DNA of 62,505 nt from Gemmatimonadota bacterium. Lineage in GTDB: Bacteria > Gemmatimonadota > Gemmatimonadetes > Longimicrobiales > Gaopeijiaceae. Below are positions 419 through 61,681 of this stretch, one piece after another (position 1 is the first letter of the stretch; each line of letters opens with the position of its first letter). Below the pieces are notes generated by a model. That model saw nothing but the letters and a program-made list of their open reading frames with translations, did no database searches and was not told the origin of the DNA. The DNA lies in NCBI GenBank assembly GCA_030827315.1, contig JAURER010000017.1, forward strand, positions 1 to 62,505, given 5' to 3'. Both the position numbers and the translations under genes were made by a program.

Positions 419-813
419 ACCGGACCTTCGTAGCTGCCCCATGCGACGTGCGACTCGTGGAGTGTCACGCAGATCGACGAGACGCCCTTCGCTCCCTCCC
501 CCAGCTCGCCCGAGCGTACGGAGCGCACCATGCGCTCCCAGATCTCGCGCGCGAGGAATTCGGTCGTCGTGTTCTTCCCCTCGAAGTCGGCCATGTCGTC
601 GAGGTTCCGGTAGTTCATCGCGTCGAGGATCGCCTTCAGCCGGTCTCCGGCCGCCGCGATGTCGACGACCAGCCCGTCCGCGTCGAGCTCCGGCCGGCGG
701 AAGGTGGCGTCGACGACGTACGTCGCCCCGTGGAGGCGCTGCGCGGGTCCGAAGGCCTCGCCGCGAAAGGAGTGCGCGATCATGAAGTGGTCACGGACGT
801 TCAGGCTGTACAT
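415..813 (-). CDS. 6-pyruvoyl-tetrahydropterin synthase-fold protein lacking catalytic residues
   Basis: A 132-residue protein of the PTPS/QueD size and fold. Canonical members bind zinc through three His and use Cys, Asp/His and Glu for catalysis on dihydroneopterin triphosphate. Here the first zinc His is kept (H14) and the second too (H28), but the HGH motif reads HGA (A30). The catalytic Cys position four residues before H28 is Ala (A24), and the usual LDH motif reads LDA (D64-A65). The substrate-pocket segment NTTTE (81-85) and the C-terminal Glu (E120) remain. So the pterin pocket looks retained while the active site is lost (inference). It sits between a dehydrogenase and a glycosyltransferase, so queuosine synthesis is unlikely. 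Start is ATG without a clear ribosome site. Confidence 0.78.
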
Positions 814-855
814 GGCGGTTGGGGTCGGGGTGATGGTTGTGGCGGTGACGGCGCG

Positions 856-1845
856 TCACGCGTAGCGGATGCGGTGGCAGAGCACGCCGGCCGGCGCGTT
901 CACGAGCCGCTGCATGGTCTCCGGAAGCTCGTCGAAGTCGCTCTCGCCGCTGAGCAGCGCGTCGAGGGCAGGGTCCCTGAGCAGGTCGAGGGCGAGCATC
1001 ATACGACGCGCGTGGGTCCAGCGCGGGGCGCGGCCCGGCGGGATCCGTCCCACCTGGCTGCTCCGGATCGTGAGCCGCTTCGCGTGGAAGTCCTCGCCGA
1101 GCGGGAGCGGGACGGCCCGGTCGCCGAACCAGCTCAACTCCAGGACCGTCGACTCCGGTCCAGCCGCGGACAGTGCCGCGCCAAGGGCCTCCGGGCTGCC
1201 GCTGGCGTGGATGACGAGGTCGGCCTCCGCACCGCCGGGCTGCTCCGTCGAGAAGCCCACGCCCAGCCGCTCGGCGACCGGTGCCCGCCCGGCGTCGACG
1301 TCGACGAGCGTGACGTCGGTGCCGGGGACGCGCCCGCACAGGTACGCGGTGAGCGATCCGACGACACCGGCACCGACCACCAGAATGCGGTCCCCGGGGC
1401 CGGGGGCCGCGTCCCAGACGGCGTTGACCGCCGTCTCCATGTTGGCGGCCAGGACCGCACGTTCGGGCGGCAGCCCCGGGGGGAGCGGCGTCACGGCGCC
1501 GGCTGGGACGACGTAGCGGTCCTGGTGCGGGTACAGGCAGAAGACATCCCGGCCGGCCAGGTCGGGTGGCCCTTCCAGCACTTCGCCGACGCTCGCGTAG
1601 CCGTACTTCACGGGGCCAGGGAAGTCCCCCTCCTGGAACGGGGCGCGCATCGCTTCGTACTGGGATGCGGGCACGCCTCCGCGGAAGACGAGCGACTCGG
1701 TGCCTCGGCTGACGCCGGAGAAGCGCGCGCGCACCAGCACGTCACCCTCTTGTCGCGGCGGCAGCGGGGCCGTCACGATCTCCCCCACGCCCGGTGCGCG
1801 GACCCGGAAGTGCCGGGCGGTGTCTCTTTGCGAAGGTTCTCTCAA
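856..1845 (-). CDS. Zinc-less medium-chain alcohol dehydrogenase-like oxidoreductase
   Basis: This 329-residue protein has the MDR layout: an N-terminal GroES-like domain, then a Rossmann domain with the nucleotide-binding loop VVGAGVVGS near residue 157. The usual catalytic-zinc Cys segment is replaced by SGVSRGTES (43-51), and the four-Cys structural zinc lobe is absent. This resembles the BchC/threonine-dehydrogenase-like branch rather than a classical zinc alcohol dehydrogenase. The substrate is unknown. The start is a TTG with GGAG five bases upstream. It lies 42 bases ahead of the PTPS-like gene and is divergent from the CDP-alcohol phosphatidyltransferase across only 47 bases, so one short intergenic region must hold both promoters. 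Confidence 0.75.
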   Translation of the reverse strand: MREPSQRDTARHFRVRAPGVGEIVTAPLPPRQEGDVLVRARFSGVSRGTESLVFRGGVPASQYEAMRAPFQEGDFPGPVKYGYASVGEVLEGPPDLAGRDVFCLYPHQDRYVVPAGAVTPLPPGLPPERAVLAANMETAVNAVWDAAPGPGDRILVVGAGVVGSLTAYLCGRVPGTDVTLVDVDAGRAPVAERLGVGFSTEQPGGAEADLVIHASGSPEALGAALSAAGPESTVLELSWFGDRAVPLPLGEDFHAKRLTIRSSQVGRIPPGRAPRWTHARRMMLALDLLRDPALDALLSGESDFDELPETMQRLVNAPAGVLCHRIRYA

Positions 1846-1892
1846 CGTGACTCCGATCTGCTGCTCATGAACGCTGTCCGAACGCTACCCCG

Positions 1893-2630
1893 ATGGATGC
1901 CGCACGTGCGGCGGGCGACCCTGTGAGACGACCCGACGTGTTTCGGGACGTCGCGCTCGCGGCGCCGGTTGTGGCCCTCGCCGCGGGCCCAACGTGGTGG
2001 CTGCTCGGGTGGCCGGCCAGCTTTGCGGCGGCCGTGACGTCTTTGTACGCGGCGCTGGCGGTGATCGTGCTCCACCGTCTGCCGCCCGAGGCGCCCGGCC
2101 CGGGGGTCGGCACCGCGAATCGTGTGACCCTGCTGCGCGCCTCCCTCTCGATTCCGGTCGGCGCGCTGGCGCTCTTCCCCGTCGCGCTCGACAACGCCGG
2201 CGCCTGGTGGGTGATCGTGCTCGGGACAGTGGCCATGGTGCTCGACGGCGTCGACGGGCGGATCGCGAGGCGTACGGGGACGGAGACCGCGTTCGGCGCG
2301 CGCTTCGACATGGAGCTCGACGCGGCGCTCATCCTGGCGCTTTCCGTGCTCGTGTGGGCGAGCGGGAAGGCAGGTCCCTGGGTGCTGGCCATCGGCGCGA
2401 TGCGCTACGTGTTCGTCGCCGCCGGCTGGGTCGTGCCCGCCCTCGACGGCGCGCTTCCGGAGCGGTTCCGCCGAAAGGCCGTGTGCGTGGTCCAGGGTGT
2501 GGTGCTCCTCGTGGCGCTCGGGCCCGTCATTCCCGGGCCGATGGCCGCGTTCGTCTGCGCGTTCGGGCTCGCCGCCCTCGCGTGGTCGTTCGCGGTCGAC
2601 GTGTTGTGGCTGCTCAGGGCCGCTGGCTAG
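1893..2630 (+). CDS. CDP-alcohol phosphatidyltransferase family membrane protein
   Basis: A 245-residue integral membrane protein with several hydrophobic helices and the full CDP-alcohol phosphotransferase signature D-x2-D-G-x2-A-R-x8-G-x3-D-x3-D. The signature residues are D118, D121, G122, A125, R126, G135, D139 and D143, so it should be catalytically competent. The family transfers a phosphoalcohol from a CDP-linked donor onto an alcohol in the inner membrane, making phospholipids or inositol-type lipids; which product is made here cannot be told. It is divergent from the dehydrogenase/PTPS-like/glycosyltransferase run. The ATG at 1893 has no strong ribosome site, and a GTG 20-30 bases downstream is possible. 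Confidence 0.85.
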   Translation: MDAARAAGDPVRRPDVFRDVALAAPVVALAAGPTWWLLGWPASFAAAVTSLYAALAVIVLHRLPPEAPGPGVGTANRVTLLRASLSIPVGALALFPVALDNAGAWWVIVLGTVAMVLDGVDGRIARRTGTETAFGARFDMELDAALILALSVLVWASGKAGPWVLAIGAMRYVFVAAGWVVPALDGALPERFRRKAVCVVQGVVLLVALGPVIPGPMAAFVCAFGLAALAWSFAVDVLWLLRAAG

Positions 2631-2658
2631 GCTCGCCGCCCGGGCCTGCCGCCGCGGC

Positions 2659-3534
2659 TCATCGCTCGATGGGCGCCCGTACCAGGTTACCCCACTCCGT
2701 CCACGAGCCGTCGTAGTTCCGGACGTCGGGGAAGCCGAGAAGGTGTCGCAGCACGAACCACGTATGGCTCGAGCGCTCTCCGATCCGGCAGTAGGCGATG
2801 ATGTCGTCCTCCGGCCGGAGACCCTGCTCCGTCTCGTAGATGGCGCGGAGTTCGTCCACGCCGCGGAACGTCGCGTCGTCGTTCGCCGCCCGCTTCCATG
2901 GAACGCTCGCCGCGCCGGGGATGTGGCCGCCCCGCAGGGCGCCCTCCTGCGGGTAGTCGGGCATGTGGAGCTTCTGACCGCTGTACTCCTCGGGTGACCG
3001 CACGTCGACCAGCCGGCCCTTCGACTCGACGTGCAGCATCACGTCGTCCCGGTACGCGCGGATCGCCTCGTCGTCGCGTGCCACCACCGGATACGCCGAG
3101 CGCGCCGGCGTGGGCGTGTCAGTCGTGATCGGGCGGCCTTCTTCGATCCACTTCCTGCGGCCTCCGTCGAGCAGGCGAACGTCAGGGTGTCCGAACAGCG
3201 TGAAGACCCAGAGTGCGTACGCGGCCCACCAGTTGAAGTTGTCGCCGTAGAAGACGACGGTGGTGTCGCGCGAGATCCCCTTGGCCGACATGAGCTCGGC
3301 GAACTTCACGGCGTCGAGGTAATCGCGGGTGAGCGGGTCGTTGAGGTCCATGTGCCAGTCGACCTTCACCGCGCCGGGGATGTGTCCCACCTCATAGAGC
3401 AGCACGTCCTCGTCCGACTCCACGACGACCACGTCGGGGTGGTCGAGGTGATCGGCGAGCCAAGCCGTGGAGACCAGCTTCTCGGGGTGCGCGTACTGCT
3501 GGAACGCCGGGTGGGGATCGTGAGGGGCGGGCAT
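2659..3534 (-). CDS. sseA: Two-domain sulfurtransferase (thiosulfate/3-mercaptopyruvate)
   Basis: A 291-residue protein with two tandem rhodanese domains. The N-terminal one is catalytically silent. The C-terminal one carries the active-site loop CRIGERS starting at C249, the thiosulfate/mercaptopyruvate sulfurtransferase type. It would move sulfane sulfur to an acceptor such as cyanide or thiols in the cytoplasm; no signal peptide is visible. The ATG has GGAG five bases upstream. It is divergent from sufE, which takes persulfide sulfur for Fe-S cluster assembly. The loop type suggests thiosulfate as donor, but the gene symbol is by family, not demonstrated specificity. Confidence 0.85.
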
Positions 3535-6977: not shown

Positions 6978-8471
6978 ATGGTGAGTTGCAGACGGACGGC
7001 GCGGTCGCGTGTGGCGATCGTGGGTGTCGGGCTGGTCGCCCTGGCGGCTGCGCCCGTCGGCGCGCAGGACGCCAAGACGCAGATGGCGGCGTACATCGAC
7101 GCGAACGCGGACGCGTTCGTCGAGACGGCTCAGGAGATCTGGGATCTCGCCGAGGTCGGGTACATGGAGACCCAGTCCTCCGAGCTCCTGCAGGCGAGGC
7201 TCCGGAGCGCGGGCTTCGAGATCGCGGCCGGGGTGGCGGGCATGCCGACGGCGTTCGTCGCCTCCTGGGGCGGCGGTGGCCCGGTGATCGGCATCATGGG
7301 CGAGTTCGACGCGCTCCCCGGCATCAACCAGAGCCGTTCCGCGGAGCGTGACCCCGTGCCGGGCAAGATCGCCGGCCACGCGTGCGGACATCATCTGTTC
7401 GGGACTGGCTCCGTCGCGGCCGCCATGGCGGTGAAGGACTGGGCCGAATCCACCGGAACCCCGGCGACCATCCGGTTCTACGGCACGCCCGCGGAGGAGG
7501 GTGGCGCGGGCAAGGTGTACATGGTTCGGGCGGGTCTGATGAGCGACGTGGACGTGATGCTCCACTGGCACGCCGGCTCGCAGAACGACGCCAGCGCGTC
7601 GTCGTCCCTGGCAAACAAGTCGGGAATGTTCCGCTTCTACGGACAGTCCGCGCACGCCGCGGGCGCGCCCTGGCGTGGTCGCTCCGCCCTCGACGGGGTG
7701 GAGGCGTTCCACAACATGGTCAACCTCATGCGGGAGCACGTGACGCCCGAGAGCCGGATCCACTACGTGATCACCTCGGGTGGCTCCGCGCCGAACGTGA
7801 TTCCCGACTTCGCCGAGTCTTACATCTACGTGCGGCACCCGGACCCCGAGGAGTCCCGTCGGATGTTCGACTGGGTGACCCAGGCGGCGCAGGGCGCGGC
7901 CATGGGCACGCAGACGCGCATGGAGCACGAAGTCATCCACGGCATCTACAACGTCCTGCCCAACGAGGCGCTCGCACGCGTCGTGCACGCCAACCTCACG
8001 CGCGTGGGCGGCGTCCAGTACGACGCCGAGGAGCGCCGCTTCGCGGAAGTGATCCATTCGACCTTCCCGGCGGACGTTCCACCGATCGAACGGGCCGCGG
8101 TCATCGAGCCGTTCGAGGTGATCGAGAAGGGCGAAGGGGGCTCGACCGACGTCGGCGACGTGAGCTGGACGGTCCCGACGGCCGGCCTGAGCACCGCCAC
8201 CTGGGTGCCGGGAACGTCGGCCCACTCGTGGCAGGCGGTCGCGGCCGGTGGCATGAGCATCGGCAACAAGGGGATGATCAACGCGGCCAAGACGCTGGCG
8301 TTCACCATGTACGACCTCATCACCAACCCCGCGCTCATCGACGCGGCGCAGCAGGAGTTCGTCGAGCGCCGTGGCGAGGACTACGAGTACGAGCCGCTGC
8401 TGGGAGATCGCGATCCGCCGCTGGACTACCGGGCCAGCGTCGTGGGCGGCAACGGCAACGGCGGCAACTGA
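6978..8471 (+). CDS. Secreted M20-family amidohydrolase (AbgB-like)
   Basis: The 497-residue product starts with a signal peptide ending near GAQDA, then an M20 dizinc hydrolase domain. Visible metal/catalytic motifs are GEFDALPG, the GHACGHHLFG segment, PAEEGGAG and a late SAHSW His. The dimerisation domain sits in the middle (GQSAHAAGAPW). This pattern matches p-aminobenzoyl-glutamate hydrolase subunit B and related amidohydrolases. The ATG at 6978 is preferred over 6960 because AAGGAG precedes it at good spacing. A perfect hairpin follows the gene. The periplasmic substrate is unknown. Confidence 0.82.
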   Translation: MVSCRRTARSRVAIVGVGLVALAAAPVGAQDAKTQMAAYIDANADAFVETAQEIWDLAEVGYMETQSSELLQARLRSAGFEIAAGVAGMPTAFVASWGGGGPVIGIMGEFDALPGINQSRSAERDPVPGKIAGHACGHHLFGTGSVAAAMAVKDWAESTGTPATIRFYGTPAEEGGAGKVYMVRAGLMSDVDVMLHWHAGSQNDASASSSLANKSGMFRFYGQSAHAAGAPWRGRSALDGVEAFHNMVNLMREHVTPESRIHYVITSGGSAPNVIPDFAESYIYVRHPDPEESRRMFDWVTQAAQGAAMGTQTRMEHEVIHGIYNVLPNEALARVVHANLTRVGGVQYDAEERRFAEVIHSTFPADVPPIERAAVIEPFEVIEKGEGGSTDVGDVSWTVPTAGLSTATWVPGTSAHSWQAVAAGGMSIGNKGMINAAKTLAFTMYDLITNPALIDAAQQEFVERRGEDYEYEPLLGDRDPPLDYRASVVGGNGNGGN

Positions 8472-8514
8472 TCCCGGCCACCGGCGCTCGCGCCGGCCCG
8501 GGGGGTGAGACATC

Positions 8515-8545
8515 GAGGGCGCGGCTCCGACGGAGCCGCGCCCTC
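8515..8545. terminator. Strong hairpin between convergent genes
   Basis: A 14-bp perfect inverted repeat with a 3-base loop (arms starting GAGGGCGCGG and ending CCGCGCCCTC). It lies 43 bases after the M20 amidohydrolase stop, and its last base pairs overlap the stop codon of the convergent MBL gene. It probably terminates transcription from both sides. No long T-run follows, as is common in GC-rich genomes. Confidence 0.7.
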
Positions 8546-9620
8546 ACGCGTTCGGATCGTCCGCCCCTGCGACCTCGATCTCGACGGTGTCTCCGTGCCG
8601 CAGCACGTGGAGGTCGGCGAGCGGAAGCCCGGCCGCGGTCCACGCCTCGCGCGTTCGCCTGGGTGGGTCTAGGGGGTCCTCGAAGGTCAGGCGGAACGTG
8701 CCCCAGTGTCCCGGTACGAAGGCCCCGGAGCCGCCGATGTCCCGATAGATTTGCAGGGCTTCTTCCGGGTCGACATGGGACGCGGCCATGAACCAGCGGG
8801 GCTCGTAGGCGCCGATCGGGATCAGGGACACGTCGAAGGGGCCCAGCCTGGCTCCGATCTCGGAAAAACAGCCCGCGTACCCGCTGTCTCCGCCGAAGAA
8901 GACGCGTGGGCCCCCGCGCCGCGCGGCTCCGGCCGGGCCGCCGCCGTGGGCGGGGGAGGGGTCCTCGGGCCGGGGCACGATGGCCCAGGAGCCCCAGAGC
9001 CGCGCGTTCGTCCCCCACGGCGTTCGGCGTGTCCAGTGCCGGGCGGGCGTGGCGTGAAAGGCGAAGCGTCCCCCCGGAGCGTCGGCGGACTGCCACCAGT
9101 CGAGCTCGACCACGCGGCGTACCCCCAGTCGTCCGAACCACCCGCCGTACCCCAGCGGGGTAAACCAGGTCAGGTCGTCGCCGTGTCGACGGTGGAGTGC
9201 GCGGACGGTCGCGCGATCCAGATGGTCGAAGTGGTCGTGCGACAGCAGGACGGCGTGGATCGGCGGGAGCTCGTCCAGGGCGGGAAGCGGTGGGACGAAC
9301 CGTCGCGCTCCGGTGAACGTGACCGGGGAGGCGCGCTCCGACCAGACCGGATCCGTAAGGACGTTCAGCCCCGGGAGCTGAACCAGGAAGGTCGTGTGCC
9401 CGACCCATGTCACGCGCACGCCTTCCCCCTCGATCACCGGATGCCCGATCCTCGGCGTTCCCACGGGTAGCTGCCCGGGCGCCGGATCGGGCGGGAGCCT
9501 CGAGGTCAGCCACGTCCACGCCACGCGCCAGAAGCGCGAGCGGATCGCGTCGTCTCCCGCGGCCTCGGGCCAGGGGTTGCGAAATCGACCGTCGGGGAGG
9601 TGGTGGGCGGGACGCGTCAC
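8544..9620 (-). CDS. MBL-fold metallo-hydrolase (UlaG/NAPE-PLD-like)
   Basis: A 358-residue beta-lactamase-fold hydrolase with the metal motif SHDHFDHLD, a later GGDSGYA Asp and a C-terminal GHWGTF His. The DPVWSERASP segment and the aromatic-rich middle resemble the N-acyl-phosphatidylethanolamine phospholipase D and UlaG-like branch, which hydrolyse phosphodiesters or lactones. I place the start at GTG 9620, where AAAGG lies seven bases upstream. The frame stays open further but would then overlap the divergent SDR gene with Arg-rich sequence. No signal peptide is visible. The substrate is uncertain. Confidence 0.78.
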   Translation of the reverse strand: MTRPAHHLPDGRFRNPWPEAAGDDAIRSRFWRVAWTWLTSRLPPDPAPGQLPVGTPRIGHPVIEGEGVRVTWVGHTTFLVQLPGLNVLTDPVWSERASPVTFTGARRFVPPLPALDELPPIHAVLLSHDHFDHLDRATVRALHRRHGDDLTWFTPLGYGGWFGRLGVRRVVELDWWQSADAPGGRFAFHATPARHWTRRTPWGTNARLWGSWAIVPRPEDPSPAHGGGPAGAARRGGPRVFFGGDSGYAGCFSEIGARLGPFDVSLIPIGAYEPRWFMAASHVDPEEALQIYRDIGGSGAFVPGHWGTFRLTFEDPLDPPRRTREAWTAAGLPLADLHVLRHGDTVEIEVAGADDPNA

Positions 9621-55394: not shown

Positions 55395-55886
55395 GTGACG
55401 GGTATCTCCAACGACCCGGCGGTCGATGACGTCGGTCAGGGGCGCGGTGCGCCGCACGGCAACCGGATGGTGGTCGCGGTCCTGGCCCTCGTCGGCTTCT
55501 TCGTCGCGCTCTTTCTCTGGGCGCACAACGCGGGGCTGACCGGGCCGATTCAGTGCGGCATCGGCGACTGCGCCACCGTGCAATCGAGCGAATACGCCTA
55601 CATCGGACCGGTGCCCGTGTCGACGATCGGCGTGGTCGGATACGCGGTGCTCGTCGCGTTGGCGCTCCTGGGGCTTCAGCCGGCGCACCGCGATTCCCGG
55701 CTCGTCGGCACGCTCCTGCTCGCCGGCTCCGGGGGTGGCGTCCTCTTCTCTGCGTGGCTGACCTATCTCGAGGCGTTCGTGATCCACGCCTGGTGTCAGT
55801 ACTGCGTGATCTCGGCGATCTTGATCACGCTGATTTTCTTCGCATCACTCCCCGAGGTGGGCCGCGTCCGCGGAGGCGCCCGATGA
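55395..55886 (+). CDS. Vitamin K epoxide reductase (VKOR)-family protein
   Basis: A 163-residue, four-helix membrane protein with the VKOR residues: loop Cys pair C54 and C59, and the active-site WCQYC motif (C134, C137). Bacterial VKOR passes electrons from DsbA-like proteins to quinone and so replaces DsbB. It follows the DsbA-like gene by 8 bases and overlaps the 65-residue gene by four. Starting at GTG 55395 keeps the first helix. Confidence 0.9.
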   Translation: MTGISNDPAVDDVGQGRGAPHGNRMVVAVLALVGFFVALFLWAHNAGLTGPIQCGIGDCATVQSSEYAYIGPVPVSTIGVVGYAVLVALALLGLQPAHRDSRLVGTLLLAGSGGGVLFSAWLTYLEAFVIHAWCQYCVISAILITLIFFASLPEVGRVRGGAR

Positions 55887-56080
55887 GCGACGACATGATG
55901 AAGGTGCGGCTTCTGTTCGTGGACGAAGGCGACTACCATCACGAGACTGTCGAGATTCCTGCGGCGTCACTCGAAGCGTACGAGCGCCTCATCGACTGCC
56001 TGCGCGAAGATCCCGAGGTGCTCCGGCGCATCCACGTGGATTTCGACCGACTCGTCTCCGCCTGCGTGAAGGGCGACTAG
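55883..56080 (+). CDS. 65-residue hypothetical protein coupled to VKOR
   Basis: A 65-residue soluble protein: strand VRLLFVDEG, then an acidic/amphipathic helix region with LEAYERLIDCLRED and VLRRIHVDFDRLVSAC. It holds Cys residues at 39 and 61. The ATG overlaps the VKOR stop (ATGA), so it is made with VKOR and DsbA. Its end overlaps the convergent DUF402 stop by four bases. Function unknown; a role in the oxidative-folding unit is a guess from position. Confidence 0.6.
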   Translation: MSDDMMKVRLLFVDEGDYHHETVEIPAASLEAYERLIDCLREDPEVLRRIHVDFDRLVSACVKGD

Positions 56081-56616
56081 GTCGGTCCACCGAGCCGGGC
56101 GAGCGCGCGCTCGAGCGTCCACTCCGTCACGACGGCGGGCGGCCAGGCACCGCCGGCCACGAGGTCGAGGATCCTGTCCGCTTCCTCTCGTGCCCGATCG
56201 GCCGTCGTGGTATCGATGTGCCGGGCGGCCAGCGCCTGATCCAGCTCGTCCTCGTCGAGCAGCCGGGCCGGACCCTGCACCGGCCACCAGACGTCGAGAT
56301 AGAGGTCCGTGGTTTGCCAGACGGGGCCGTCCATCACCGGCGGCGTGAGGATGTTGGCGTACAGCCCGGTGTAGGACCCATCCGCGCGGTGGAACCGGCC
56401 GATGTCGTGCCACACGCCCGGGAAGGTGAACCAGACGGCGAGTGAGCCGCGCTCGAGCATCACGGCGCCGTCGACGGTCATCGGCGCTTCGAGATCGAGC
56501 GGCTCGGACAGCGTGACGATCACGTCGTCGCGCTCGACCACGATGCGCTGGTCGTAGATCCGGAGCCGGTCTGGAGGGCGACGGTAGTGGATCGCGACCC
56601 GTGAGGCCGCGGTCAC
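56077..56616 (-). CDS. DUF402 family protein
   Basis: A 179-residue protein of the DUF402 family, with the beta-barrel-like pattern and the acidic motif TTDLYLDVWW that marks the metal site in family members known to hydrolyse nucleoside di/triphosphates or nucleotidyl-phosphonates. It is probably a metal-dependent hydrolase of small phosphorylated molecules (inference). GTG 56616 overlaps the stop of the XdhC/CoxI gene, making it the last gene of the overlapped operon. Confidence 0.75.
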   Translation of the reverse strand: MTAASRVAIHYRRPPDRLRIYDQRIVVERDDVIVTLSEPLDLEAPMTVDGAVMLERGSLAVWFTFPGVWHDIGRFHRADGSYTGLYANILTPPVMDGPVWQTTDLYLDVWWPVQGPARLLDEDELDQALAARHIDTTTADRAREEADRILDLVAGGAWPPAVVTEWTLERALARLGGPT

Positions 56617-56984
56617 GCTTCGGGCTCCCCCGGCGATGCCGACTGCGCGAGCGAGGGGTCCGACACCCGTTCCACGAACACGTCCATCACGCCGCCGCAT
56701 ACGGCCGGACTCCATGTCGTGAAGTCTTCGGTCAGGTCGACTCGGACGCGTTCCGCCGCTCCCGTCTCGATGACCCTTCGCGCTGATTCGATGACCTCTG
56801 CCTCGCCGCAGCCACCGCCCACCGTGCCGACGAGCCCCACGGCAGGATCCACGAGCATGCGCGCCCCCACCTTTCGAGGCGTGGAGCCGCGGGTCGCGAC
56901 GATCGTTGCCAGCGCGCACGTCCGGCCTGCGCGTCGTGCCTCGGCGAGCGCCTCGGCGAGGGAGCGGTCGTCTTCGTGGGTCAT
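56613..56984 (-). CDS. XdhC/CoxI-family small protein
   Basis: A 123-residue protein comprising only the XdhC/CoxI domain, with RGSTPRKVGARML, GTVGGGCGEAE and VCGG. The two conserved Cys are those thought important in XdhC for handling sulfurated molybdenum cofactor. XdhC-type proteins help insert sulfurated Moco into xanthine dehydrogenase or CO dehydrogenase. The Rossmann part is missing here but is present in the gene just upstream, so the two may work as a split XdhC. ATG 56984 overlaps the upstream stop. Confidence 0.82.
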   Translation of the reverse strand: MTHEDDRSLAEALAEARRAGRTCALATIVATRGSTPRKVGARMLVDPAVGLVGTVGGGCGEAEVIESARRVIETGAAERVRVDLTEDFTTWSPAVCGGVMDVFVERVSDPSLAQSASPGEPEA

Positions 56985-57862
56985 TGGGTATCGTCTCGGT
57001 CTGCTTCCGGCTCGTGGGCATCGCTGGAGAAGAAGCGCTCAGCCACTCGCTCGACGTCGCGGAGTGACGAGCCCGAGCCGCCCCGGTCGAGGAGCACGAG
57101 CTGCGCCGCCACCGCCACCGCGATCTCCTCCGGTGTCTCGGCCCCGATGTCGAGACCGACCGGCGCGTGAATCCGCGCGAGGTCCTCCTGCCCGAAGCCT
57201 TCCTCGAGCAGCTGAACGTACGTCGCCCGCACCCGGCGGCGGCTCCCGATCATACCGACGTACGCCGGGGGCGGATCCGTGCGAAGGGCCCGCACCAGGC
57301 ACTCGTAGTCGTACTTGTGCCCACGGGTGACGAGTAGGAGGTACGATCGTTCGTGGAGGGTCACGGCGGCGAAGGGGTCCGAAAAGTCCGTACGCACGAG
57401 CCGGTGCGCGTCGGGAAAGCGCTCGCGCGTCGCGAAGTCGGGACGATCGTCGAGAACGAGGACCCGGTACCCGAGGAGCGCTCCGAGGTGGGCCATGGGC
57501 TGTGCGATGTGCCCCGCGCCCACGACGACCAGCTCGCGGAGCGGGCGCCGGAGCTCCAGGTAGAGTTCGTACGGCTCGGAGGTCGAGGGCTCGACCCCGG
57601 TGACGTGGATGGTGCGGATGCCGTCCTGGGCCCGGGGATCGCCAATCGCGTCGTCCAGACAGGCGAGCGCGGCCCGGTCGAGGGGTTCGGAGCCGAGCGC
57701 ACCTACCCTTCGGTCACCGCTCCCGTCACGGACGCGGACGAGGCGCGCTCCCAGGCGCGCCGTCGCCGGCCCGCCGACGAGTGTGACGGCCGCGGCCGTA
57801 CCGCCCGTTTCGGCCGTCCGGATGAGGAGTTCCGCCGCTTGGGCGGCGCCTAACGCGGTCAT
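56981..57862 (-). CDS. XdhC-type protein with Rossmann domain
   Basis: A 293-residue protein with a degenerate XdhC/CoxI-like N-terminal part (about residues 1-110), lacking the GGGC and CGG Cys motifs, and a C-terminal XdhC Rossmann domain (VVVGAGHIAQPMA near 125; LVTRGHKYDYECL; YVGMIGSRRR). Such proteins bind and deliver molybdenum cofactor. Paired with the small XdhC/CoxI protein it would supply the missing half. Start ATG overlaps the MocA-like stop. Confidence 0.82.
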   Translation of the reverse strand: MTALGAAQAAELLIRTAETGGTAAAVTLVGGPATARLGARLVRVRDGSGDRRVGALGSEPLDRAALACLDDAIGDPRAQDGIRTIHVTGVEPSTSEPYELYLELRRPLRELVVVGAGHIAQPMAHLGALLGYRVLVLDDRPDFATRERFPDAHRLVRTDFSDPFAAVTLHERSYLLLVTRGHKYDYECLVRALRTDPPPAYVGMIGSRRRVRATYVQLLEEGFGQEDLARIHAPVGLDIGAETPEEIAVAVAAQLVLLDRGGSGSSLRDVERVAERFFSSDAHEPEADRDDTQ

Positions 57863-58470
57863 CCTGCGCCCCCCGGCGCCAGGGACGAACGAATGCGCCG
57901 GTACGCCTCGGGTGTGTCGATATCCTCGATCACGCCGGGGTCGTCGATTCCGACCAGCCGTGCCTCGTGGAGATGCCGGTGCACCACCGTCCGCGCTCCG
58001 CCCTCGAGGCCGGGGTCGAGAAGCTCGGCGAAGAGCGTCCGGGCGAAGACGGCTGGATGCCCCCGCTTCCGGCCGTGTACCGGAATCGTCAACGGCCCGC
58101 CCCCGTCGGCGGCAGCTTCGAGAATGGTGCGCACGACGTCCGGCGTCACCAGCGGGTGATCGAGCGGGAGCCATGCGACCCCGTCGACGTCCGGTTCCAG
58201 CGCCTGGAGCACCATCCGAAGCGACGTGATGGGTCCCTCTCCCGGGGAGGGATTCCTGAGTACCCGGGCCCCGCTGCGTTCGGCCTCGGCGGCCGTGACG
58301 TCGTCACCCTTTGCGACCACGACGTGCACGGTGGCGCAGCCGCCTTCACCGAGGGCGTGCACGACGCGCTTCACGAAGGTGCGGCCCTCGAGGGTGAGCA
58401 TGGCCTTGGGCGTGCCCATCCGCCGTGAGGCGCCCGCGGCGGGGACGACGCCCACGAAACGAGGCTTCAA
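57859..58470 (-). CDS. MocA/MobA-like molybdenum cofactor nucleotidyltransferase
   Basis: A 203-residue nucleotidyltransferase with the NTP-binding PAAGASRRMGTPKAML and the LPLDHPLV metal segment, typical of MocA/MobA proteins that attach CMP or GMP to molybdopterin. Because the next genes are XdhC types, the MocA-like role (making the cytosine dinucleotide cofactor for the xanthine dehydrogenase family) is most likely. The start is a TTG overlapping the FadJ-like stop (TTGA); GTG 58455 is an alternative. Confidence 0.8.
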   Translation of the reverse strand: MKPRFVGVVPAAGASRRMGTPKAMLTLEGRTFVKRVVHALGEGGCATVHVVVAKGDDVTAAEAERSGARVLRNPSPGEGPITSLRMVLQALEPDVDGVAWLPLDHPLVTPDVVRTILEAAADGGGPLTIPVHGRKRGHPAVFARTLFAELLDPGLEGGARTVVHRHLHEARLVGIDDPGVIEDIDTPEAYRRIRSSLAPGGAG

Positions 58471-60665
58471 CGCGCGCCAGCGGAGCCGGGAAAGGCTGCG
58501 TAGAAGGAGCGATCCGATTCGGCCAGTCGAAGGAGCAGGGGGGCCGGCGCGAAGCGGTCGCCGTACCGGTCATGAAGGGCATGCACGTGGTCGAGAACGC
58601 CGCGGGGGTGGAGGGTGTCCGCGAAGCGCAAAAGCCCTCCCCGGAACGGCGGGAAGCCCGTGCCCATGATCATGGCGAGGTCCACGTCCCGGGCCGCGCC
58701 GACGATGCCGTCGTCGAGAATGCGCGCGGCCTCGTTCACCATGGCGACCACGAGCCGACGCCTGATCTCGCTGACGGTCTCTTCCGAAGCCGCCGTCTCC
58801 GAAGACGGCGCTGTGAGCCCGAACGACGCGTATACGTCCGGATCGACGCCCTTCTCGATGCCCTTCTCGTAACGGTAAAAGCCGAGCCCGCCCTTGCGGC
58901 CCAGGCGTCCAGTCTCCGCGAGCGCCTTCAGGACCGGCGACGGTGCGAGCCTCTCGCCCAGCGCCGCGTGCAGCGATGCTCCCGCGTGGCCCGAGACGTC
59001 GATGCCCACCTCGTCGATGAGCCGCAGGGGGCCCATCGGCATGCCGAACTCCCTGGCCACACGGTCGATTACCGCGACCGATCCGAAGTCCGTCAGGAGG
59101 AACCCCGCTTCGTTCAGGTACGGGCCCAGAATGCGATTGACCAGAAAGCCCGGGCCGTCGCCGACCACCACCGGGACCTTGCCCAGTTCCACGGAGAGCC
59201 GGTAGACGGTCGCGATCGTCTCGTCCGAGGTGCGCGGACCGCGGATGACTTCCACGAGAGGCATCCGGTGCACCGGATTGAAGAAGTGCATGCCGCAGAA
59301 GCGCTCGGGACGTTCGAGCGCCTCGGCCATCTCGGCCACGGAGAGCGACGAGGTGTTCGTGGCGAGGACGCACGCGGAGGACACGTGGCCCTCGGTCTCG
59401 CGCAGGACGGTCTTCTTCACGTCCATCCTCTCGACGATCGCCTCGACGACCAGGTCGGCCCCGGAGAGTCCGTGATACTCCAGACCGCCGGAAATACGCT
59501 CCTGGGCCTGCACCGCCTCGCGCTTCGTCATCCGCCGTTTCGAGACCGCCCCGTCGAAGAGGGAGCGTGCGTGCCGGAGTCCACCGGTGACGGCCTCGTG
59601 CCGGACGTCCTTCATGTAGACCCGGATGCCCCGGGACGCCGCGAGCTGCCCGATGCCGCCGCCCATGACGCCTGCGCCGAGGACGCCGAGCGTCTGCACG
59701 GGGCGAGCGGTGGCTCGCTCGCGGTCGGGTGCGGCCGGAATGCCCGTGCCCTTGCGGGCCGCCTCCCGCATGTGGAACACGTGGATCAGGTTCTTGCACA
59801 CGGGTCCGACCACCAGTTCGGCGCCGGAACGGGCTTCCGCCGCGAGGCTGTCTTCGACGCTCCCTCCCAGGTGGTCGTGGAGCAGGTCGAGAATGCGAAG
59901 CGGCGCCGGGTAATGCCCGCCGGTGGTCGCCATCACCTTTCGGCGGGCCATGGTCAGCACGATGCGGCGCCCGGGACGCGTCTCGTCCAGCGCGCGGGTC
60001 ACCAGCTTGCGCCGGGGCGGGGCGGGGCTCTTCCCGTGGCGCACCACGCCGAGCGTGAAGGCGCGTACGGCGTCGTGGAAGCCTCCCGCGGGGAGCACTT
60101 CGGACGCGAGCCCGATCCGTTTCGCCCGCCGTGCGTCCACCCGCTTCCCCGTGAGGATCAGGTCGAGTGCTCCCTGAAGTCCGATGAGCCGTGGCAGACG
60201 GGTCGTACCACCCCACGCCGGAAGGATGCCGAGCTGGACCTCGGGGAGGCTCATGACCGTCTTCGGGCCGTCGGAGAGGACGCGGTAGTCGCACGCGAGC
60301 GACATCTCCACTCCACCGCCCATACAGACCCCATGCACCGCCGCCACCGTGGGGACTGGCAGGGCGGCGAGGTCGCCGTAGATGCTCTGGCCGACCGTGA
60401 TCTGCTTTTCCGCCTCCGTGGGGTCCTCGATCCCGGCGATGGCGGCGACGTCCGCGCCCGCGATGAAGGAATCGGCCTTGCCGCGGATGATCAGCGCGAG
60501 GAGGCGCGCCTCCCCAGCCGCCGCGCGGGCTTCGTCCAGCACTTCACCGAATCGGAGCATGACGGGCTCCGTCAGCACGTTCAGCGAGCGCTCCGGGTCG
60601 TCGAAGGTGACCCAGCCGATCCGGTCGGCGTCGATGTCGAAGGTGGGGCTGCGGCTCTGCGTCAT
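58467..60665 (-). CDS. FadJ/FadB-like fatty-acid oxidation multifunctional enzyme
   Basis: A 732-residue fusion of an enoyl-CoA hydratase domain (about 1-300) and a 3-hydroxyacyl-CoA dehydrogenase domain (about 340-730). Hydratase Glu residues lie in GGGVEMSLAC and LPEVQLGILP; the dehydrogenase has GAGVMGGGIG and the catalytic His of HFFNPVHRMPLVEV. It would hydrate and oxidise fatty acyl-CoA in beta-oxidation. It is the first gene of the overlapped operon with Moco genes, which is an odd pairing. ATG 60665 is used; no thiolase gene is adjacent. Confidence 0.93.
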   Translation of the reverse strand: MTQSRSPTFDIDADRIGWVTFDDPERSLNVLTEPVMLRFGEVLDEARAAAGEARLLALIIRGKADSFIAGADVAAIAGIEDPTEAEKQITVGQSIYGDLAALPVPTVAAVHGVCMGGGVEMSLACDYRVLSDGPKTVMSLPEVQLGILPAWGGTTRLPRLIGLQGALDLILTGKRVDARRAKRIGLASEVLPAGGFHDAVRAFTLGVVRHGKSPAPPRRKLVTRALDETRPGRRIVLTMARRKVMATTGGHYPAPLRILDLLHDHLGGSVEDSLAAEARSGAELVVGPVCKNLIHVFHMREAARKGTGIPAAPDRERATARPVQTLGVLGAGVMGGGIGQLAASRGIRVYMKDVRHEAVTGGLRHARSLFDGAVSKRRMTKREAVQAQERISGGLEYHGLSGADLVVEAIVERMDVKKTVLRETEGHVSSACVLATNTSSLSVAEMAEALERPERFCGMHFFNPVHRMPLVEVIRGPRTSDETIATVYRLSVELGKVPVVVGDGPGFLVNRILGPYLNEAGFLLTDFGSVAVIDRVAREFGMPMGPLRLIDEVGIDVSGHAGASLHAALGERLAPSPVLKALAETGRLGRKGGLGFYRYEKGIEKGVDPDVYASFGLTAPSSETAASEETVSEIRRRLVVAMVNEAARILDDGIVGAARDVDLAMIMGTGFPPFRGGLLRFADTLHPRGVLDHVHALHDRYGDRFAPAPLLLRLAESDRSFYAAFPGSAGAR

Positions 60666-60726
60666 CGCCGGGTCACGAGAGGGGACGAGGATCCCACCAC
60701 AATACGGAACATGGGGCCAAAAGGAA

Positions 60727-60759
60727 GCCGCCCGGACGCGACCTGCGCGCCCGGGCGGC
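60727..60759 (-). terminator. Hairpin downstream of the lipoprotein gene
   Basis: Arms GCCGCCCGG (60727-60735) and CCGGGCGGC (60751-60759) pair perfectly, with a further CGCG/CGCG pair inside the 15-base loop. It lies between the lipoprotein gene and fadJ-like gene on the same strand, as expected for a terminator that separates them. Confidence 0.55.
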
Positions 60760-60786
60760 CCGAAGACTGCGGTGTCGGGGTGGAGC

Positions 60787-61566
60787 CTAGAGCTTGATGC
60801 GCTCCTGCGCGTTGGCACGCGTGAGCGTGACCGTCAGCGGCTCACCGCCCTCGACCGTGATCGGGACGTTCCAGTAGAGCTCGGTGTAGGGGAGCTCGTA
60901 GCGGGCGTGGACCCAGTAGCTGCCCGGCTTCACCATGAGGTTGCCGCGGGCGACGCCGCTCGCGTCCGTCGTGTCGACGACCCAGTCGAGCGCCGAGGCG
61001 CGCTCCTTGAGGGAGAAGACGGTCCCGATTTCCGAGAACACTTCGTCCGCCCAGTTGTCCCTGAGGATGCGTACGGAATCCGAGGCGCGGATCGTACCCT
61101 GCTGGAGCTCGTCGAACACAGCGAAGGTGCGCTCGACTTCGCGCTCCGCGGCACCGTACTGGCTGTCCCAGTCCTGCCACTCGCGGAAGAGCGCCACGTA
61201 GCGAGCCTCACCGCGGGCCAGCGGCTCCATGGCGTCGTTGAGTTTCTGGAGCGTGTCCCGGATCGTCGCCCAGCGACGGTTCGCGGCATCCCAGGCTTCC
61301 TGGGCTGACTGAACCTCGGTGCGCGCGTCGATGAGCTCCTGCGGAACCGCGGGCTCGGGTGTCCCGTACGCCGCGGTCATCGAATCGAAGACCGCATCGC
61401 GGTCGAACGGGATGATCTGCACCTCGATGTCGGAGAGCTGGCGCTGAACCATGCCTTCTCCGTCGGGGTTGGGAACGTCGATCTCCATCGTCACCACGAC
61501 CTCGGCCGGACCGCAGGCCGCGGCTACGAGCAGGAGGCTGAGGGCGAACGGGAGGGACCTTCTCAT
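60787..61566 (-). CDS. Hypothetical lipoprotein with coiled-coil region
   Basis: A 259-residue protein with a lipoprotein signal (LLVAAACG). A middle region of long helices rich in charged residues and Trp (about residues 75-165) is likely coiled coil. The C-terminal part has a beta-sandwich-like pattern (GNLMVKPGSYWVHARYELP) resembling carboxypeptidase-regulatory-type folds. No family recognised. ATG 61566 has GGAG eight bases upstream. It follows the M23 peptidase gene by 115 bases. Confidence 0.65.
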   Translation of the reverse strand: MRRSLPFALSLLLVAAACGPAEVVVTMEIDVPNPDGEGMVQRQLSDIEVQIIPFDRDAVFDSMTAAYGTPEPAVPQELIDARTEVQSAQEAWDAANRRWATIRDTLQKLNDAMEPLARGEARYVALFREWQDWDSQYGAAEREVERTFAVFDELQQGTIRASDSVRILRDNWADEVFSEIGTVFSLKERASALDWVVDTTDASGVARGNLMVKPGSYWVHARYELPYTELYWNVPITVEGGEPLTVTLTRANAQERIKL

Positions 61567-61681
61567 GGCTCGGACTCCGTTGGTGTCGAACGCATTAATG
61601 TGATAGCGGCCAAAGTTAGTCGGCCGGAAAATCGCGAGCAACCGCGTCCGGCGATGGGTACCCCGGGGGGCACCGGCTCGA

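Follow-up and report, generated by a model that had tools for sequence, protein, structure and literature searches.

A molybdenum-cofactor maturation set, probably relocated between fadJ and DUF402 genes, in a family of Gemmatimonadota

Why genes for molybdenum-cofactor maturation should share a tightly packed gene chain with a beta-oxidation gene is the question raised by a 62,505-nucleotide stretch of DNA from a Gemmatimonadota bacterium of the family Gaopeijiaceae (GenBank assembly GCA_030827315.1, contig JAURER010000017.1). This stretch, hereafter the window, forms contig C67 in a 98% complete genome of 3.07 Mb. On the minus strand, from 56077 to 60665, it holds a fadJ-like gene, the trio mocA-xdhC-coxI and a DUF402 gene, all five present and arranged head to tail (Table 1), and at each of the four junctions the start overlaps the previous stop by four bases (TTGA, ATGA, ATGA and GTGA). 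An earlier note on this DNA described the chain correctly, including the lack of an adjoining molybdoenzyme, and suggested that the cofactor genes may be carried by a fat-oxidation operon. We consider it likely that the trio is instead the maturation set for the genome's xanthine dehydrogenase (XDH)-family enzymes, relocated between fadJ and DUF402, without a role in fat oxidation. Gene names are used at the family level: the products reach the Pfam domain cut-offs and not the curated FadJ, MocA, FomD and NtdP cut-offs.

Candidate clients of the trio are encoded elsewhere in the genome, as the earlier note had anticipated, with three PF02738 large subunits on contigs C13, C54 and C82; MoaA, for cofactor synthesis, is on contig C62. 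C54 and C82 carry small-large-flavin adenine dinucleotide (FAD) subunit clusters, and on C82 a cytochrome b561-type gene follows the FAD subunit. The small subunits of these two clusters start with the N-terminal stretch SRRDFIKG or SRRTFIKG (read by eye), which we take to be a twin-arginine-like export signal. C13 encodes one small and one large subunit, next to an AmiA-like gene and with no FAD (beta) subunit found beside them; its flanks hold M1 peptidase, amidohydrolase, M20, cupin and DUF1028 genes. The C13 large subunit, the best-scoring of the XDH enzymes, is closest among solved structures to 4-hydroxybenzoyl-coenzyme A (CoA) reductase (1rm6, 621 bits; the next at 267). The prediction of an XDH-family enzyme acting on acyl-CoA or aromatic substrates is upheld by this likeness, but only in part, as the protein scores 891 of the 994.55 bits set for the alpha subunit of that reductase (equivalog TIGR03194). 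No XdhC Rossmann domain other than that of the window was found in the genome, and the trio therefore most likely matures all three XDH-family enzymes.

The biochemical steps can be proposed by analogy with Escherichia coli. The parts of PMC3909100 available to us describe MocA as making the cytosine dinucleotide form of the cofactor, which the XdhC-like protein PaoD receives for PaoABC, a small-large-FAD enzyme carrying that cofactor; a chaperone of the PaoD type is expected there to have the cofactor sulfurated, and places it in the large subunit. The window resembles the MocA-PaoD-PaoABC system, so far as those parts describe it, in pairing a cytidylyltransferase with an XdhC-like chaperone for a small-large-FAD enzyme, and differs in that the chaperone is split, the presumed clients are on other contigs and the set lies within a fadJ-DUF402 pair. 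Accepting the analogy, MocA would add cytidine monophosphate to the molybdenum cofactor, the two-piece XdhC/CoxI chaperone would take over the cofactor and have it sulfurated, and the XdhC-CoxI pair would insert it into the large subunits of the three XDH enzymes on other contigs.

Whether the trio goes with the molybdoenzymes or with fadJ was examined in 59 genomes, comprising 35 of the window's own family (f1) and 12 in each of two sister families (f2 and f3). Among the matches listed, to which all such presences and absences refer, an XdhC_C domain scores over its cut-off in 54 of the 56 genomes with an XDH large subunit and in 0/3 of those lacking one (Fisher p 3e-4, uncorrected for relatedness). 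The three genomes without XDH are G021, G051 and G054; G051 has one sub-cut-off XdhC match. In G021 (95% complete), neither XDH nor XdhC is found, xdhC and coxI are absent from the locus, and fadJ and DUF402 are full-length. Between the latter two lies a degraded mocA-like frame (locus L054, ~7966-8661), which shares 44% identity with the mocA of L065 and has VIPCADRSGAIGGAPPPLL, a degraded motif, in place of VIPAAGLSSRIGGNPKPLL. Thus fadJ and DUF402 manage without the trio in this genome, and the trio has not persisted beyond the XDH enzymes. Judged by gene content, the trio follows the molybdoenzymes and not fadJ, and the persistence of fadJ in G021 speaks against a functional link of the cofactor genes to a fat-oxidation operon.

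Comparison of gene order revealed two ARRANGEMENTS in relatives, one with the trio between fadJ and DUF402 (f1) and the other with fadJ and DUF402 but no trio (f2). The full five-gene order occurs in 23/35 f1 genomes, our own included, and is not a chance arrangement. Among the remaining f1 genomes, contig ends truncate two loci (L025, L045), fadJ is absent from three that have the trio with DUF402 (L056, L058, L063), DUF402 is absent from one with fadJ and the trio (L093), and the trio is absent from two with fadJ-DUF402 (L051, L055). L091 has all three trio genes, coxI being displaced, and lacks both fadJ and DUF402; L054 retains only the degraded mocA, and the arrangement was not found in G024 and G010. 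Only three loci (the window, L043 and L057) have the 4-base overlap at every junction, and overlaps vary elsewhere. The close loci that carry names come from Gemmatimonadota assemblies. In f2, fadJ adjoins DUF402 without the trio in 11 of the 12 genomes (overlapping it by 4 bases in L076 and L086), and the twelfth, G037, has no DUF402 match. In f3, DUF402 occurs without fadJ in the fetched stretch, some stretches being short, in 12/12 genomes; f3 probably corresponds to Longimicrobiaceae, because the xdhC tree places the Longimicrobium locus L143 within it. The expectation that the order is conserved in relatives thus holds within the family and not beyond it.

The whereabouts of the trio in f2 and f3 point to its origin. 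XdhC neighbourhoods were fetched for 15 of the 24 f2/f3 genomes, some picked because XdhC and XDH shared a contig, and in 10 of these 15 (7/10 in f2, 3/5 in f3) the trio lies beside a small or large subunit of the C13 type; the neighbourhood was not fetched for one f2 genome with XdhC over the cut-off (G049) and for seven f3 genomes. C13-type subunits occur in 0/58 loci of the DUF402 region together with the odd f1 loci. That the trio in these families is often beside an XDH enzyme, and that f2 has fadJ-DUF402 without it, also argues against a fat-oxidation operon, and suggests that the trio came from beside an enzyme it serves. Genome rearrangement, and not joint function, is therefore the probable explanation of the neighbourhood seen in the window. 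The simplest history would be that fadJ and DUF402 were already neighbours when, in the f1 ancestor, a single move brought the trio into the gap between them, with losses later; the source of the trio, most simply, would be a place beside a C13-type XDH enzyme. After such a move, the trio would probably be co-transcribed with fadJ, yet serve molybdoenzymes and not fat oxidation.

In a fadJ tree (34 rows, quick method), which by itself cannot tell gain from loss of the trio, the state "trio beside fadJ" requires four changes, and the three f1 rows without the trio lie inside the family with moderate branch support (86, 84). A quick xdhC tree places f1, f2, f3 and other named Gemmatimonadota in one group with a Shimodaira-Hasegawa-like approximate likelihood ratio test (SH-aLRT) support of 99. 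Alignment rows were kept by length and type: 34/38 for fadJ, 40/44 for mocA, 40/47 each for xdhC and coxI, and 51/52 for DUF402. The profiles exclude L090, L092 and L098, which are of a different type, and the xdhC tree excludes L040, L045, L047, L048 and L094 as near-copies or fragments.

Several observations weigh against a relocated maturation set. The trio and a C13-type enzyme are close together in only 11 of the 24 f2/f3 genomes among the matches listed (7/12 in f2; 4/12 in f3, including the unfetched G050), and XdhC was not seen near a C13-type enzyme in 8/12 f3 and 5/12 f2 genomes, judged by eye on draft contigs; in the remaining genomes XdhC and XDH are on other contigs or far apart, or there is no XDH. 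Two genomes have XDH matches and no XdhC_C among the matches listed, namely G022 (81% complete, 7 XDH matches, locus L055) and G010 (63% complete, 3 XDH matches). G017 and G024 have a different XdhC type, with coxI before xdhC and located elsewhere, and G018 and G023 have further XdhC copies; the trio is therefore not the sole way to serve XDH enzymes. Finally, the five-gene order persists across the f1 genomes counted above, often with overlapping starts, which fits selection for joint expression.

A rival explanation, which we regard as very unlikely, is that the C13 enzyme, resembling 4-hydroxybenzoyl-CoA reductase, acts on an acyl-CoA that feeds or drains FadJ, with the trio kept in the fadJ operon so that both are co-induced. 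It draws on the structural likeness of the C13 large subunit, on the retention of the order in f1 and on a thiolase on the C13 contig, ~7.5 kb from the enzyme. In f2 and f3, however, the C13-type enzyme and the trio occur together without fadJ; the C13 enzyme lacks an adjoining FAD subunit and sits among the peptidase, amidohydrolase, M20, cupin and DUF1028 genes; and fadJ persists where XDH is not found among the matches listed, both in G021, without XdhC, and in G051, with the sub-cut-off XdhC match only. We rejected metabolic coupling on the sister-family arrangement and on G021. We give correspondingly little credence to C13 being a new molybdenum hydroxylase or reductase acting on acyl-CoA, apparently without an FAD subunit gene of its own, whose chaperone is made with FadJ for one CoA-ester pathway; if true, the cofactor set would have stayed so long in the fadJ operon for a functional reason.

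As read from their domains, xdhC and coxI together make up a chaperone that is normally a single fused protein, here divided in two with the parts in swapped order. The xdhC product has a second CoxI-like domain at about residues 1-100 and the XdhC Rossmann domain (PF13478, cut-off 29.7 bits) at residues 111-255; its N-terminal part matches CoxI in HHalign at 95.9%, and Pfam detects the second CoxI-like domain directly at the N-terminus of xdhC in L155. The coxI product carries the cysteine motifs GGGCGE and PAVCGG, and its cysteines C59 and C96 are invariant (40/40 aligned), while no cysteine of xdhC is conserved at 90% (40 aligned). On the fused structure 2we7, coxI aligns to residues 12-113 and the xdhC profile to residues 119-369; 2we8, identical to it in sequence, is given in the accessible part of PMC10609526 as an XdhC homologue of Mycobacterium smegmatis. 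The window thus holds the same domains as the fused XdhC/CoxI proteins (PDB 2we7/2we8 and 3on5), but in two genes, in swapped order and with the conserved cysteines on the small protein only. As far as the accessible part of the review PMC2997495 goes, almost all XdhC-like proteins share a single conserved cysteine, with an unclear role, which is Cys82 in Rhodobacter capsulatus. Either of the two invariant cysteines, which lie with the CoxI domain (PF02625) on the separate coxI, could match Cys82. We dropped the idea that the N-terminal domain of xdhC is a CoxI that has newly degenerated, because the fused 2we7 already has that second domain.

The layout of xdhC and coxI was also compared in public loci, the best-scoring 80 of 588, so that the following are not population frequencies. 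In 48/80, xdhC is followed by coxI in another frame (35/37 loci of Gemmatimonadota type, 13/43 of the others); 16/80 have coxI-xdhC in a single frame, 8/80 a single frame in swapped order, 5/80 coxI-xdhC in two frames, and in 3/80 a separate coxI match is absent. The split form is thus not peculiar to the window's family and is found in other phyla too. We noticed three loci (L136, L139, L140) that are labelled Gammaproteobacteria and have a Gemmatimonadota neighbourhood; they are probably mislabelled and were counted among the 37. XdhC and CoxI share one open frame in swapped order in L163, L174, L177, L185 and L187 (Desulfotomaculaceae, Peptococcaceae and an Armatimonadetes assembly), and in genome G047 a single open frame of ~516 amino acids (L101, 5732-7279, minus strand) has both mocA and xdhC matches. 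The occurrence of split xdhC/coxI genes in several phyla would accommodate insertion of the trio by lateral transfer from another phylum rather than a move within the genome, but we think this highly improbable, given that f1 xdhC groups with f2, f3 and other named Gemmatimonadota (SH-aLRT 99) and that f2 and f3 hold the same trio, mostly split alike and often beside their own XDH enzyme.

The other three proteins are ordinary members of their families. The fadJ-like product resembles FadJ/FadB, the alpha subunit of the fatty acid oxidation complex, over its full length and in the order of hydratase and dehydrogenase domains. It differs in scoring under the equivalog cut-offs, with 595 of 968 bits for TIGR02440 and 667 of 869 for NF008363 (both FadJ) and below the cut-off for FadB as well, and in having no thiolase gene on its own contig, where a search for Thiolase_N gave no match. 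It is therefore named FadJ-like, and is a probable beta-oxidation hydratase/dehydrogenase by its domains. The genome has four strong PF02737 matches; the window's fadJ is the only one in a long (788 amino acids) open frame, and each of the other three has a thiolase within ~1.5 kb. The mocA-like product exceeds the cut-off of the MobA-like NTP transferase domain PF12804 (27 bits) and scores 129.4 bits against the 186.45 of the MocA equivalog TIGR03310, hence the name MocA-like. It carries a PAAGASRRMG stretch, presumably the nucleotide-binding motif, which was read by eye because a strict motif pattern missed many members with PASG or PCAG in place of AAG/AGG.

The DUF402 product exceeds the PF04167 cut-off of 23.9 bits. 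Its metal-site residues N88, D104 and D108, present in 51/51 aligned relatives, are spaced like the conserved N404/D420/D424 of RNase W as described in the available portion of PMC11602121. It resembles the NtdP/FomD phosphatases in its Pfam domain and in these equally spaced N/D/D residues, and differs in very weak equivalog scores (FomD, 23 bits of 320; NtdP, 20 of 280). It is probably a nucleotide phosphatase. That it is a FomD-like hydrolase acting on a cytidylyl-cofactor or on cytidine tri- or diphosphate around MocA, a notion encouraged by the cytidylyl compound that FomD hydrolyses according to the same portion of PMC11602121 and by the Chloroflexi-labelled locus L155, where mocA-xdhC-coxI-DUF402 stand in a row (770-3017), coxI and DUF402 overlap and xdhC is sister to the Gemmatimonadota group (SH-aLRT 91), is the least probable explanation of all, since its FomD score is so low, the trio is found in 0/24 f2/f3 DUF402 loci examined, DUF402 persists in G021, G051 and G054, without XDH among the matches listed, and only 2/61 Chloroflexota DUF402 loci have the trio, both (L190 and L221) being the seed genome itself. 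With the L155 lead unrepeated in the 59 other Chloroflexota DUF402 loci, we rejected a cofactor enzyme as the main function of DUF402. The 61 loci are those returned (1 + 30 + 30, with ~1.5 kb flanks on each side and some places appearing twice), on a base of a PF04167 match in 159/301 genomes and an L155-protein match in 93/400. The DUF402 gene of L155 is the sole one found in that genome, and its contig, of 6.7 kb, could be a contaminant.

Table 1 Genes of the five-gene chain and features at its borders.
Feature	Position	Strand	Description
fadJ-like	58467-60665	minus	732 aa; ECH_1, 3HCDH_N and 3HCDH above Pfam cut-offs
mocA-like, probable CTP:molybdopterin cytidylyltransferase	57859-58470	minus	203 aa, TTG start; PF12804 126 bits
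xdhC	56981-57862	minus	293 aa; PF13478 152 bits
coxI, stand-alone XdhC/CoxI domain	56613-56984	minus	123 aa; PF02625 84 bits
DUF402 gene, NtdP/FomD-type nucleotide phosphatase-like	56077-56616	minus	179 aa, GTG start; PF04167 58 bits
GC-rich hairpin between upstream gene and fadJ	60690-60786	minus	-48.6 kcal/mol, z -3.0
65-aa open reading frame (ORF)	55883-56080	plus
284-aa ORF	60787-61641	minus

At the borders of the chain, the GC-rich hairpin is a possible terminator of the gene upstream of fadJ; a promoter and terminator scan of 55800-61000 reported none, the hairpin included. The 65-aa ORF, which lies after dsbA-like and VKOR-like genes (both named by eye) and ends tail to tail with the DUF402 gene, has no Pfam or NCBIfam match, and relatives occupy the same place in many loci of f1, f2 and f3. 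The 284-aa ORF, of unassigned family, adjoins an M23-type peptidase-like ORF (named by eye) and keeps its place beside the region in many f1 and several f2 loci. In the open-access library searched, with subscription journals largely outside coverage, we found no paper on this gene order: none treats xdhC together with fadJ, none of those that combine three or more of DUF402, xanthine dehydrogenase, MocA, XdhC and CoxI includes DUF402, and a search joining XdhC, CoxI, MocA and the molybdenum cofactor gave none on it either.

Overall, this is a real, family-conserved gene order built of ordinary parts, and the arrangement itself is informative. The odd operon can be explained as a maturation set that apparently moved away from a client enzyme and now serves several. 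G021 provides a natural test case, with the clients gone and the set itself lost or decayed, and the split chaperone, whose conserved cysteines are on a small protein of their own, gives a means of testing the role of each half. The locus also carries a warning, in that an operon neighbourhood alone does not show that pathways are coupled.

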